Of a DNA stretch of 64,000 nt, positions 7,324 to 59,554 are shown in pieces (the stretch's first letter is position 1; each line of letters begins with the position of its first letter). This DNA comes from Hydrogenophaga sp. GTDB lineage: Bacteria > Pseudomonadota > Gammaproteobacteria > Burkholderiales > Burkholderiaceae_C. The notes below the pieces were generated by a model. It ran no database searches and had not been told where the DNA came from. It saw nothing but the letters and a program-made list of their open reading frames with translations. The position numbers were made by a program, and so were the translations under genes. The DNA lies in assembly GCA_030653975.1 (NCBI GenBank), contig JAURYH010000058.1, forward strand, positions 1-64,000, in the 5' to 3' direction.

Positions 7324-7702
7324 GTGAAGCGCGCTAGGCCGTCGCTGGCACAGCCCGCAAGGGAACCCGAAAGGGAGTGCTGGAGGAACGTCCGGACTGC
7401 ACAGGACAGCGTAGGAGGTAACACCTCTCCACCGACAAGCCGCAAGGCCCTAAGGTGAGGATCAGAGCAACAGAGACGAGCCGCTTCAGTGCGGGTGAAA
7501 CGGGCAATCTCTACGCGCAGCAATACCAAATAGGCCAGCCTGAGGCGACACGGTTCGCCGTGTTGTTGATCCTCGTGGTTCCGCGAGGAGAGCTGGCGGG
7601 TAGGTAGCACCGAGCCGGGTGGGTGACCCCCGGCCCAGATGAATGACGGTCACGTTCAGGGCAACCTGGGCGCACAAAATCCGGCGTATCGGCGCGCTTC
7701 AC
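7324..7702 (+). ncRNA. rnpB: RNase P RNA, bacterial type A
   Basis: This is the catalytic RNA that trims tRNA 5' leaders. The ends pair as helix P1: GTGAAGCGCG at 7324-7333 with CGCGCTTCAC at 7693-7702. The conserved core is present: GAGGAACGTCCGGACTGC at 7383-7400, AGAGCAACAGAGACGAGCCG in the J11/12 region, CAATACCAAATAGG, and GATGAATGACGGTCACG near 7640 on the 3' side of P4. Compared with the usual GGAAAGTCC, base 7389 is C, and its partner in P4 at 7648 is G instead of T, so the pair is kept by covariation. A -10-like GATAAT at 7312-7317 places transcription start near 7324. Ends are accurate to a few bases. Confidence 0.96.
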
Positions 7703-7723
7703 ACTATTTTCGGATCCGGCGGT

Positions 7724-56639: not shown

Positions 56640-58100
56640 ATGATTGCACGCGAACCCACCCTGGCCCGACTGTCCAGCGCCCAGAGCCTCCTGCTCGATC
56701 CTTTTGGTTTGACACCCTCCCATTTGCAGCGCGCGCTGGGCGAGATCATGTCGCGTGGCGCGGACGATGCCGACCTCTATTTCCAGACCACGCGCAGCGA
56801 GGGCTGGAGCCTGGAAGAGGGCATCGTCAAGACCGGCAGCTTCAGCATTGACCAGGGCGTGGGCGTGCGCGCCGTGAGCGGCGAAAAGACCGCTTTCGCG
56901 TATTCGGACGACCTCTCCTGGGCCTCGTTGCTGGACGCGGCGCACACCGTGCGAACGATCACGGCCCAGGGTCAGGACCGCAAGGTGCGCACGCCGGCCA
57001 CCAGGGTGGCGAAATCGCGTTCGCTCTACCCCGGCCTGGACCCGATCGGCACACTCGACAGCACCGCCAAGGTCGCGCTGCTGGAGAAGGTGGAAAAACT
57101 CGCCAAGGCCAAGGACCCGCGCGTGGTGCAGGTCATGGCGGGCCTGGCGGCCGAGCACGACGTGGTGCTGGTGGCGCGTGCCGACGGCACCATGGCGGCC
57201 GACGTGCGCCCGCTGATCCGCCTGTCGGTCACGGTGATCGCCGAACAGCAGGGCCGGCGCGAGGTCGGTTCTTCGGGTGGTGGCGGCCGTTTTGGCCTGG
57301 CGTATTTTGACGACGCCATGGTCCAGTCGTATGTGGACGAGGCCGTGGACGCGGCCCTCACCAACCTCGACGCGCGGCCCGCGCCCGCGGGTGAAATGAC
57401 CGTGGTGCTGGGGTCGGGCTGGCCGGGCGTGCTGCTGCACGAGGCGGTGGGCCACGGGCTCGAAGGCGACTTCAACCGCAAGGGCTCCAGCGCGTTTGCC
57501 GGGCGCATCGGCCAGCGCGTGGCCGCCAAGGGCGTGACCGTGCTCGACGACGGCACCATGGCCGACCGCCGCGGCTCGCTCAACGTGGACGACGAAGGTT
57601 GTCCGACGCAGAAGAACGTGCTGATCGAAGACGGCATCCTGCGCGGCTACATCCAGGACGCGATGAACGCGCGCCTGATGGGCCTGAAGCCCACCGGCAA
57701 CGGCCGGCGCGAGAGCTACGCCCACGTGCCCATGCCGCGCATGACCAACACCTACATGCTGGGTGGCGACAAGAGCCCCGAAGAAATCGTGGCCAGCATC
57801 AAGAAGGGCCTGTACGCCACCAACTTCGGCGGCGGGCAGGTCGACATCACCAGCGGCAAGTTCGTGTTCTCCGCCAGCCAGGCTTACTGGGTGGAAAACG
57901 GGAAGATCCAGTACCCCGTGAAAGGCGCCACGCTGGTGGGCAGCGGTCCGGAATCGCTCAAGAAGATCAGCATGATCGGCAACGACATGAAGCTGGACAG
58001 CGGCGTCGGCACCTGCGGCAAGGAGGGCCAGAGCGTGCCCGTGGGTGTGGGCCAACCCACGCTGCGCATTGATGGGTTGACGGTCGGCGGCACCGCTTGA
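56640..58100 (+). CDS. tldD: Metalloprotease TldD
   Basis: TldD forms a heterodimeric zinc protease with TldE/PmbA; the pair cleaves partly unfolded peptides, including modified peptide precursors. The protein is 486 residues. The start at 56640 is preferred because an upstream ATG at 56631 ends immediately in TGA. The metal-binding HEAVGHGLEGDFNRKGSSAF is at about 264-283, with the later GNGRRESYAHVPMPRMTNTYM and C-terminal CGKEGQSVPVGVGQPTLRID. TldE is not in the window. The gene lies 65 bases after the dehydrogenase. Confidence 0.95.
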   Translation: MIAREPTLARLSSAQSLLLDPFGLTPSHLQRALGEIMSRGADDADLYFQTTRSEGWSLEEGIVKTGSFSIDQGVGVRAVSGEKTAFAYSDDLSWASLLDAAHTVRTITAQGQDRKVRTPATRVAKSRSLYPGLDPIGTLDSTAKVALLEKVEKLAKAKDPRVVQVMAGLAAEHDVVLVARADGTMAADVRPLIRLSVTVIAEQQGRREVGSSGGGGRFGLAYFDDAMVQSYVDEAVDAALTNLDARPAPAGEMTVVLGSGWPGVLLHEAVGHGLEGDFNRKGSSAFAGRIGQRVAAKGVTVLDDGTMADRRGSLNVDDEGCPTQKNVLIEDGILRGYIQDAMNARLMGLKPTGNGRRESYAHVPMPRMTNTYMLGGDKSPEEIVASIKKGLYATNFGGGQVDITSGKFVFSASQAYWVENGKIQYPVKGATLVGSGPESLKKISMIGNDMKLDSGVGTCGKEGQSVPVGVGQPTLRIDGLTVGGTA

Positions 58101-58185: not shown

Positions 58186-58218
58186 GATGGGGCGTGCGCG
58201 GCGTTCTGGCTTTGCTGT

Positions 58219-58226
58219 GCTACATT
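58219..58226 (+). promoter_or_regulatory. Candidate extended -10 of the aroG leader
   Basis: TGCTACATT-type extended -10 (TGC at 58218-58220 and TACATT at 58221-58226), with no good -35. Transcription would begin near 58233, almost directly at the leader ATG at 58235, so the leader could be read as a leaderless message. Confidence 0.4.
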
Positions 58227-58234
58227 TCGATCCC

Positions 58235-58309
58235 ATGTGCTCGCGCTTTGCCTTCTTCGCCTTTTACTTTTGGTTCTCAGTCCCCGGCGGACGAGAGGCG
58301 AAGCTGTAA
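58235..58309 (+). CDS. Aromatic-amino-acid-rich leader peptide of aroG
   Basis: A 24-codon frame from ATG 58235 to TAA 58307-58309. Codons 5-14 read F-A-F-F-A-F-Y-F-W-F, that is six Phe, one Tyr and one Trp in ten codons; the remaining 14 codons are ordinary and end REAKL. No Shine-Dalgarno sequence precedes it. Its place, 111 bases before DAHP synthase and just upstream of a terminator, is that of an attenuator leader peptide that senses charged Phe, Tyr and Trp tRNAs, as in pheA and trp leaders of enteric bacteria. Confidence 0.88.
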   Translation: MCSRFAFFAFYFWFSVPGGREAKL

Positions 58310-58365
58310 GCGCATCACCGAATCTCGAAAAAACCGCCGGAGCCACAAGCCCGGCGGTTTTTTTT
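58284..58365 (+). terminator. Attenuator: antiterminator and Rho-independent terminator before aroG
   Basis: Terminator: AAACCGCCGG (58331-58340) pairs with CCGGCGGTTT (58351-58360), 10-base loop, run of eight T to 58365. The same 8-mer CCCGGCGG as the 3' arm (58350-58357) also occurs inside the leader gene at 58283-58290, and it can instead pair with 58334-58340; CGAGA (58292-58296) with TCTCG (58323-58327) extends that alternative helix. A ribosome stalled on the aromatic codons would leave 58283-58296 free to form the antiterminator. Confidence 0.85.
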
Positions 58366-58420
58366 GGTCTCTGTTTTTCTTCTTACGTTTTCTCCGCAAC
58401 CCCCACCGAGGAGCCCACCG

Positions 58421-59554
58421 ATGACCGCCAAAGCCACCCCCGCCAGAGCCGATGCCTGGCATTCGCGTCCCGCCGACAAGACCAGTCAGACCGACGACGA
58501 ACGCATCAAGGACATCACCGTGCTCCCGCCTCCCGAACACCTGATCCGCTTTTTCCCGATCGGCGGCACGCCGGTGGAGGCTCTCATCAGCCAGACGCGC
58601 AAGTCCATTCACAACATGCTGCACGGGCACGACGACCGCCTGCTGGTGGTGATTGGCCCGTGCTCCATCCACGATCCGGCCGCCGCGCTCGATTACGCGC
58701 GCCGCTTGAAGCCTCTGCGCGACAAATACGCCGATACGCTGGAGATCGTGATGCGCGTGTATTTCGAGAAGCCGCGAACCACGGTGGGCTGGAAGGGGCT
58801 GATCAACGACCCCTACCTGGATCAGAGCTTCCGCATTGACGAAGGCCTGCGCATCGCCCGCCAGCTGCTGATCGAGATCAACCGCCAGGGCCTGCCCGCA
58901 GGCAGCGAATTTCTGGACGTGATTTCACCGCAGTACATCGGTGACCTCATCAGCTGGGGTGCCATCGGCGCGCGCACCACCGAGAGCCAGGTGCACCGCG
59001 AACTGGCCTCGGGCCTGTCGGCACCGATCGGCTTCAAGAACGGCACCGACGGCAACATCCGCATCGCGACCGACGCCATCCAGGCCGCGGCGCGTGGCCA
59101 CCATTTCCTCTCGGTGCACAAGAACGGCCAGGTCGCGATCGTGCAGACCAATGGCAACAAGGACTGCCACGTGATCCTGCGCGGCGGCAAGTCCCCGAAC
59201 TACGACGCCGGCCACGTGGCCGCGGCGGTCAAGGAGCTCGAAGCCGCCAAGCTCGCCCCGCGCCTGATGGTGGACTGCAGCCACGCCAACAGCAGCAAAC
59301 AGCACGAAAAGCAGCTCGATGTGGCGCGCGATATCGCGGCACAGATCGCAGGCGGCTCGCGCAGCGTGTTCGGCGTGATGATCGAAAGCCATATTGAAGC
59401 GGGCGCACAGAAATTCACCCCCGGCAAAGACGACGTGAGCAAGCTGGCCTACGGTCAAAGCATCACCGACGCCTGCCTGGGCTGGTCCGATTCGCTGGAG
59501 GCGCTGGAGGTGCTCTCTGCGGCCGTGCAGGGCGCTCGCCAGTTGAAGTCTTGA
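58421..59554 (+). CDS. aroG: 3-deoxy-7-phosphoheptulonate (DAHP) synthase, class I
   Basis: DAHP synthase is the first enzyme of the shikimate pathway, joining PEP and erythrose 4-phosphate. The protein is 377 residues from ATG 58421, with GAGGAG upstream. It is of the AroFGH type I-alpha class: DDRLLVVIGPCSIHDP, EIVMRVYFEKPRTTVGWKGLINDP, GARTTESQVHRELASGLSAPIGFKNGTDGN, MVDCSHANSSK (metal-binding Cys and His) and VMIESHIEAG. Such enzymes are feedback-inhibited by aromatic amino acids; here transcription is also likely attenuated by the aromatic leader. Confidence 0.96.
   Translation: MTAKATPARADAWHSRPADKTSQTDDERIKDITVLPPPEHLIRFFPIGGTPVEALISQTRKSIHNMLHGHDDRLLVVIGPCSIHDPAAALDYARRLKPLRDKYADTLEIVMRVYFEKPRTTVGWKGLINDPYLDQSFRIDEGLRIARQLLIEINRQGLPAGSEFLDVISPQYIGDLISWGAIGARTTESQVHRELASGLSAPIGFKNGTDGNIRIATDAIQAAARGHHFLSVHKNGQVAIVQTNGNKDCHVILRGGKSPNYDAGHVAAAVKELEAAKLAPRLMVDCSHANSSKQHEKQLDVARDIAAQIAGGSRSVFGVMIESHIEAGAQKFTPGKDDVSKLAYGQSITDACLGWSDSLEALEVLSAAVQGARQLKS

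Follow-up and report, generated by a model that had tools for sequence, protein, structure and literature searches.

The locus described here raises the question of whether a class I DAHP synthase gene, aroG, whose product determines the flux toward every aromatic amino acid, is preceded in Hydrogenophaga by a leader that would make its transcription answer to the supply of those same amino acids. The gene occupies 58421..59554 (+ strand) of the window, by which is meant the whole stretch of 64,000 nucleotides analyzed, and begins with ATG at 58421 behind a Shine-Dalgarno-like GAGGAG (58408..58413, + strand). Its 377-residue product matches TIGR00034 at 532.9 bits, above the cut-off, and PF00793 as well; the closest solved chains are those of the Phe-sensitive AroG of E. 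coli, and the named relatives nearest by AroG (91% identity) are mostly Hydrogenophaga contigs. From its layout and its conservation in related genomes, the aroG leader is very probably a ribosome-mediated transcription attenuator, one that most likely keeps the entry step of aromatic amino acid synthesis off until these products run low.

Layout and predicted folding of the leader

The leader peptide frame, MCSRFAFFAFYFWFSVPGGREAKL, comprises 24 codons and a stop (58235..58309, + strand, with the stop at 58307-58309), and an extended -10 promoter element, TGTGCTACATT (58216..58226, +), lies 8 nt upstream of its ATG. Codons 5-14 (58247..58276, +) read F A F F A F Y F W F. Inside the frame, directly after these aromatic codons, lies strand 2, the 5' side of the antiterminator (58284..58296, +), made up of CCGGCGG and CGAGA (58292-58296); 26 nt separate it from the strand 3 side (58323..58340, +), in which TCTCG (58323-58327) is followed by CCGCCGG (58334-58340). 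The latter heptamer is common to the antiterminator and to the intrinsic terminator (58331..58365, +), of which strand 4 spans 58351-58357 and eight T at 58358-58365, the U tract, form the end. A sequence-only reading of this DNA had put eight aromatic codons in ten (six Phe, one Tyr, one Trp) in a 24-codon leader ahead of a terminator at 58331-58365 and a DAHP synthase gene, and upon re-reading these elements prove exact to the base. It had further described a leader segment duplicating the 3' arm of the terminator, together with an extra CGAGA/TCTCG helix, and the letters bear out both, CCCGGCGG at 58283-58290 being identical to the arm at 58350-58357.

Within the window, eight aromatics in 11 codons are reached from four of the 2057 ATG, GTG or TTG codons that open frames of 12-60 aa on either strand, and all four belong to the single aroG leader frame; among stop-free 11-codon stretches in all six frames, two of 108,335 contain eight aromatics. 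A simple promoter and terminator scan of the window does not list the terminator of the leader, because its stem has a bulge, nor does it list a sigma-70 promoter; that of the leader would consist of an extended -10 lacking a good -35. NCBIfam, Pfam and PHROGs give no family match for the leader. Rfam gives none at its position at gathering score, and below that score the matches there are to unrelated families only. The one Rfam match at gathering score in the window is RNase P, a bacterial class A RNA at 7326-7704.

The terminator of the window folds at -19.9 kcal/mol (z -4.1) and the antiterminator stretch, 58281-58342, at -23.8 kcal/mol (z -3.2). Over 147 leaders (of 154 rows), the mean z is -2.9 for the 2:3 antiterminator and -4.31 for the 3:4 terminator. 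A conserved 1:2 (pause or protector) hairpin was expected and not found in these 147 leaders: the mean z from leader to strand 2 is -0.39, with values below -2 in 5% of them, and the leader of the window is itself able to form such a hairpin. The earlier claim that the full logic of attenuation is present thus holds for the 2:3 and 3:4 helices. Judged from these predicted folds, the aroG leader is a switch of three strands, and a 1:2 hairpin does not belong to its conserved parts.

In an alignment of 61 sequences, the terminator 3:4 pairing is kept in 96.9% of cells, the main helix of the 2:3 antiterminator in 88.0% and its second helix in 57.1%. The 2:3 covariation score is 0.119 vs 0.093 (sd 0.005) in shuffles and exceeds that of every slid version, in an alignment in which MAFFT sets strand 2 one base off in some rows. 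For the second helix the pairing excess is modest, 10.97 vs 10.20 (sd 0.17, max 10.7) with shuffled partners, across 140 leaders and uncorrected for relatedness. The variable base adjoining GGCGG in strands 2, 3 and 4 could be read in 154 of 179 sequences, the other 25 falling outside the count for want of an exact match to the GGCGG or CCGCC core. It reads C-G-C in 62 of the 154 and T-A-T in 33, and its pairing exceeds the shuffle maximum both for 2:3 (110 vs 103) and for 3:4 (146 vs 121). Covariation, which the sequence-only reading had suggested as a check on the alternative folds, speaks for both helices at this base but not at the next two positions beyond it, where pairing stays in the shuffle range (154 leaders). 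Upon mapping the variable position onto a tree of 148 AroG proteins, 10 changes are inferred for strand 3, 10 for strand 4 and 38 for strand 2; five branches show a joint change in strands 3 and 4 that preserves their pairing. Strand 2 is, on these counts, looser than strands 3 and 4, and antiterminator and terminator are, by the comparisons above, conserved and partly covarying.

Conservation and spread of the leader

The close set consists of 80 loci from named genomes, two of which (L016 and L046) begin at or just before aroG and carry no upstream sequence. The sequence-only reading had said that absence of the leader frame and of the terminator/antiterminator pair from close relatives would count against it; this comparison was made and left the reading unrefuted, an aromatic leader frame being present in 78 of the 78 relatives with upstream sequence and a T-tract terminator in 77. 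The one relative without it is a metagenome assembly (L041:2388-2500), in which the leader is present and the 3' half of the terminator is missing ahead of aroG. By script, 75 of the 78 have 5-8 aromatics in 11 codons, and the other three (L069-L071) have four each by eye. The usual pattern in close relatives is F-Y-F-x-Y-F-W-F-S, often followed by GGRE.

In the 67 alignable leaders (of 77), aromatic codons make up 455 of 737 core codons (62%) in frame, as opposed to 140/670 (21%) and 104/670 (16%) in the other two frames. A W stands at one fixed place in 57 of the 67, with Y two codons earlier in 51. The pN/pS of the leader frame is 0.31, by a simple count over 268 close pairs that are not independent. 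This indicates purifying selection on the peptide frame, and we infer from this codon selection that the frame is translated. In some relatives the peptide is cut short and the RNA kept: in Acidovorax-type leaders the peptide finishes with GGCGGATGA although GGCGGATGAGAGG is retained, the frame stopping at GGCGGA-TGA-GAGG with GGCGG...GAGAGG preserved, and in L049 the leader is shifted in frame with GGCGG...GAGAGG still preserved. (The sets overlap: L090 has the same leader as L049, and L099 repeats L054.) Leader length ranges from 17 to 28 aa, and F, Y, W and sometimes H interchange along the core. The 88 close leaders average 4.3 F, 1.5 Y and 1.0 W, and 82 of them contain all three; among 78 distant leaders, all three occur in 30, F and Y only in 37, and W in 34. 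A rule requiring an ATG and aromatic codons finds no leader in 9 of 87 distant sequences. Three of these nine, DAHP synthase leaders of one family (f44; L180, L187 and L189), are matched by the model described below yet look truly poor in aromatic codons.

The spacing of the promoter is nearly fixed. Of 89 close leaders, 86 have TGNTANNNT with its end at a distance of 6-9 nt from the ATG (6 nt in 16, 7 nt in 43, 8 nt in 26 and 9 nt in 1), the exceptions being L044, L069 (read in the wrong frame) and L097 (an inner ATG taken); a Shine-Dalgarno-like 4-mer precedes the leader ATG in none of the 89. Among distant leaders, TANNNT stands 5-9 nt before the ATG in 38 of 77, and 7 of 77 show a Shine-Dalgarno-like 4-mer, four of these being part of the -10 itself. 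Because the ATG follows an extended -10 at 6-9 nt, without a Shine-Dalgarno sequence, in 86 of 89 close leaders, the aroG leader mRNA is probably leaderless, as the sequence-only reading had suggested.

Two RNA models were used to follow the leader further, R1 built from 61 sequences and R2 from the 100 rows of alignment A2; A2 and R2 include one artefact row, the opposite strand of the terminator of the window. In the own genome, searched at E <= 10, no second aroG-type leader was found, and the four other matches (E 0.009 and up) were set aside as the opposite strand of the aroG terminator or terminator-like pieces. In 399 genomes of the order, R1 matches 119 at E <= 0.01 and leaves some 280 without a match. 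Leaving the own genome aside, a DAHP synthase follows all 29 of the top matches and 70 of 73 further places, so that 99 of 102 inspected matches stand before one, a count that excludes 28 partial matches beginning at model position 56 or beyond; with the own genome included, 99 of the 399 have the leader ahead of DAHP synthase. The three remaining places were rejected, two (L181, L185) as terminator-only matches and one (L186) as a leucine attenuator. In the own family R2 matches 146 of 150 genomes and 137 of 141 genera, with a best E of <= 1.1e-9 in each, this count being of model matches alone; the four genomes missed are 55-90% complete.

Upon widening the search to the class, 64 of 369 genomes match at E <= 0.01, and all four places outside the order with E < 1e-10 precede a DAHP synthase. 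The 23 weaker of the 27 loci beyond those known (L190-L216), at E >= 1.9e-5, do not, and since only the four strongest of the 27 precede the gene, weak model matches are mostly chance. Sampling 299 genomes across the phylum yields 33 places with E <= 1e-5, each ahead of a DAHP synthase, 17 of them already known and 16 newly found. For all 16 the enzyme is of class I; one of these places belongs to the gamma family met in the class search, and the other 15 are spread over three families from other classes. Leaders in other proteobacterial classes include MITVATSYFWYFSYDSLLAAGGSRSI. A weaker case is that of plasmid 1 of the alphaproteobacterium Paracoccus denitrificans PD1222, where MSHRMPCTISFYWFRCPQRSRV is the leader and the match scores 29.4 bits (E 4e-6 in 14,796 bases). 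In a tree of 101 AroG proteins, sampled by leader presence and rooted on the own AroG2, the non-beta copies group into a single clade (support 0.994) beside four copies of one beta family (0.972), nested in the beta diversity. As the non-beta clade falls inside beta diversity, the tree suggests, as a lead, that leader-bearing AroG has spread horizontally. That one leaderless Phe/Tyr/Trp attenuator is a main control of shikimate entry in much of the betaproteobacteria, and travels as a unit with the DAHP synthase gene into other classes, is a tentative proposal to which we give somewhat less than an even chance.

The leader is not attached to every DAHP synthase. The second DAHP synthase of the own genome, AroG2 (L002), has no such aromatic leader upstream, nor do two named DAHP synthase loci on large plasmids of Cupriavidus and Variovorax. 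At two loci (L100, L107) a second DAHP synthase frame stands behind the first one, downstream of the leader. In the GLS(A/C)P segment, AroG1 and AroG2 both retain the Ser that the Phe-sensitive AroG of E. coli has there, a residue that we take to mark Phe sensitivity of DAHP synthase.

Leaders of other kinds were met in the same genomes. Second matches of the aroG model in family relatives (L186, L217, L218 and L219) are leucine-codon leaders, such as MKQISLALLLSPHGRRR and MNTPSFALLLTPCGLRR, whose ATG closely follows an extended -10 like that of the aroG leader, at a distance of a few nt, and which show, by eye, a terminator-like element; the frames that follow are named 2-isopropylmalate synthase, of two types, by NCBIfam, and the four are probably leaderless leuA attenuators. 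A trpE leader frame ending in GAWPWRKPA (GAWLWRKPA in L242) was read at 12 of 12 loci of the genus (L226, at C58 of the own genome, and L234-L238 and L240-L245 in relatives), with an TTTGNTATANT-like element, such as TTTGCTACACT, shortly before the ATG. No clear U-tract terminator was seen in the own copy (L226). This trpE leader is probably a leaderless trp attenuator.

Proposed mechanism and rival explanations

In the mechanism proposed, transcription would start at, or one to two bases from, the leader ATG, and the ribosome would therefore load directly onto the 5' end. Under a shortage of tRNA charged with Phe, Tyr (and Trp), translation would stall in codons 5-13 and leave strand 2 free to pair with the emerging strand 3, allowing RNA polymerase to enter aroG; when charged tRNA is ample, the ribosome would cover strand 2, strand 3 would pair with strand 4, and termination would follow at the U tract. 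In a model with a 31-nt ribosome footprint, the antiterminator forms before strand 4 is made when the A site is at codons 1-13 and does not form when it is at codons 14-24, while a ribosome waiting on the stop codon again allows a weak partial antiterminator. Upon folding the whole leader at equilibrium, the terminator wins at every ribosome position, and the switch would therefore have to be kinetic. That read-through would change, and which of Phe, Tyr and Trp would count, we infer from this arrangement, the sensing of all three being read from codon content only.

It is on this last point that the main rival bears, namely that the attenuator is effectively a sensor of Phe, or of Phe and Tyr, to which the lone Trp codon contributes little, as may be true of Tyr too. 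The earlier claim that all three amino acids are sensed agrees with the joint presence of F, Y and W in 82 of 88 close leaders and agrees less well with the distant ones, in which only 30 of 78 have all three and W itself is found in only 34. Phe dominates even the close leaders, both AroG1 and AroG2 keep the Ser of the GLS(A/C)P segment, and the aroR leader of C. glutamicum carries F-Y-F, a Tyr codon included, while Tyr availability is without effect there, according to the sections available of that report (PMC11802643). Against this narrower sensor, the W (57/67) and Y (51/67) positions are conserved beyond what a Phe sensor would need, and we regard it as possible, at roughly one chance in three.

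The remaining rivals would alter the mechanism itself, and we consider them less likely than the attenuator proposed. A further role in trans for the terminated leader RNA and its peptide, such as rnTrpL and peTrpL have in Sinorhizobium meliloti, is unlikely: the probable leaderless layout is that of trpL, as described in the available parts of PMC7298713 and PMC10117765, and the GGRE part of the peptide is conserved in many close relatives, but strand-2 RNA accounts for GGRE, which is cut off or frameshifted in L013 and L049. A short conserved hydrophobic peptide ahead of a regulated gene might instead be a nascent-chain arrest peptide that senses free aromatic amino acid (cf. TnaC and Trp) rather than tRNA charging; the interchange of F, Y, W and H, and lengths of 17-28 aa, fit the counting of codons and not a specific arrest sequence, which makes this very improbable. 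Most improbable is that a mere terminator of the upstream gene sits beside a chance frame, or that the element is a peptide-independent riboswitch. The terminator does lie 230 nt beyond the point at which the upstream frame ends, with its stop at 58100, and its opposite strand weakly matches the model (E 0.009), but purifying selection on the frame, a conserved promoter between the upstream gene and the leader, the tie of 99 of 102 inspected order matches to DAHP synthase, and Rfam matches that are confined to unrelated families below gathering score all argue against these readings.

If correct, this attenuator would be a regulator missed by annotation, near universal in one large family, found in several classes and lacking an Rfam match, and would point to a step of control in Hydrogenophaga, Acidovorax, Variovorax, Comamonas and their relatives. 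It would also offer a natural test of one leader weighing three amino acids, and of attenuation on leaderless messages.

Comparison with known attenuators

In E. coli, pheL-pheA, pheST and trpL-trp are controlled by ribosome-mediated attenuation through aromatic codons, and the trp-type attenuator uses a 1:2 hairpin. The aroG leader resembles these systems in its aromatic-codon attenuation, as proposed, and differs from them in the genes controlled and, from the trp type, in that the 1:2 hairpin is not conserved. All three E. coli systems are named as attenuators in the available portion of PMC11802643, and attenuation of E. coli aroF had earlier been hypothesized, as mentioned in the accessible part of PMC8632094.

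Among the literature matches listed, no title or abstract opening names a betaproteobacterial aroG attenuator, and older papers may hold more; word searches of the main text, as far as available, of PMC5343134, PMC1262725, PMC2965389 and PMC4603805 find no aroG attenuator in this group. The present example thus seems undescribed. The kind is already known, from Corynebacterium and as proposed for Acholeplasma and E. coli; what is new, within the literature reached, is this member, its spread and the missing Rfam match.

The nearest described counterparts are likened here by their descriptions, each from a partial text. In C. glutamicum, a leader peptide with F-Y-F precedes the DAHP synthase operon aroR-aroF (PMC11802643, PMC4046766), and stalling raises transcription under Phe limitation, Tyr being without effect (PMC11802643). 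The likeness lies in an aromatic leader peptide ahead of DAHP synthase; the Corynebacterium system is actinobacterial, does not respond to Tyr and, in the sections available, comes with no mention of Trp. The Acholeplasma motif uORFC-13-1, ahead of aroF, is a predicted Phe-codon leader with a terminator (PMC8632094), alike in standing before a DAHP synthase and unlike in having a ribosome-binding site and, by that partial text, 24 representatives from one genus and environmental DNA. The leaderless start has its own precedent in S. meliloti, where the trpL mRNA begins at its AUG and serves as a Trp attenuator (PMC7298713, PMC10117765); as far as those sources were available, it is alike in the leaderless start, which is probable for aroG, and in the attenuation of an aromatic pathway gene, as proposed for aroG, and unlike in that trpL-rnTrpL is a Trp attenuator of trpE(G) with a different sequence.
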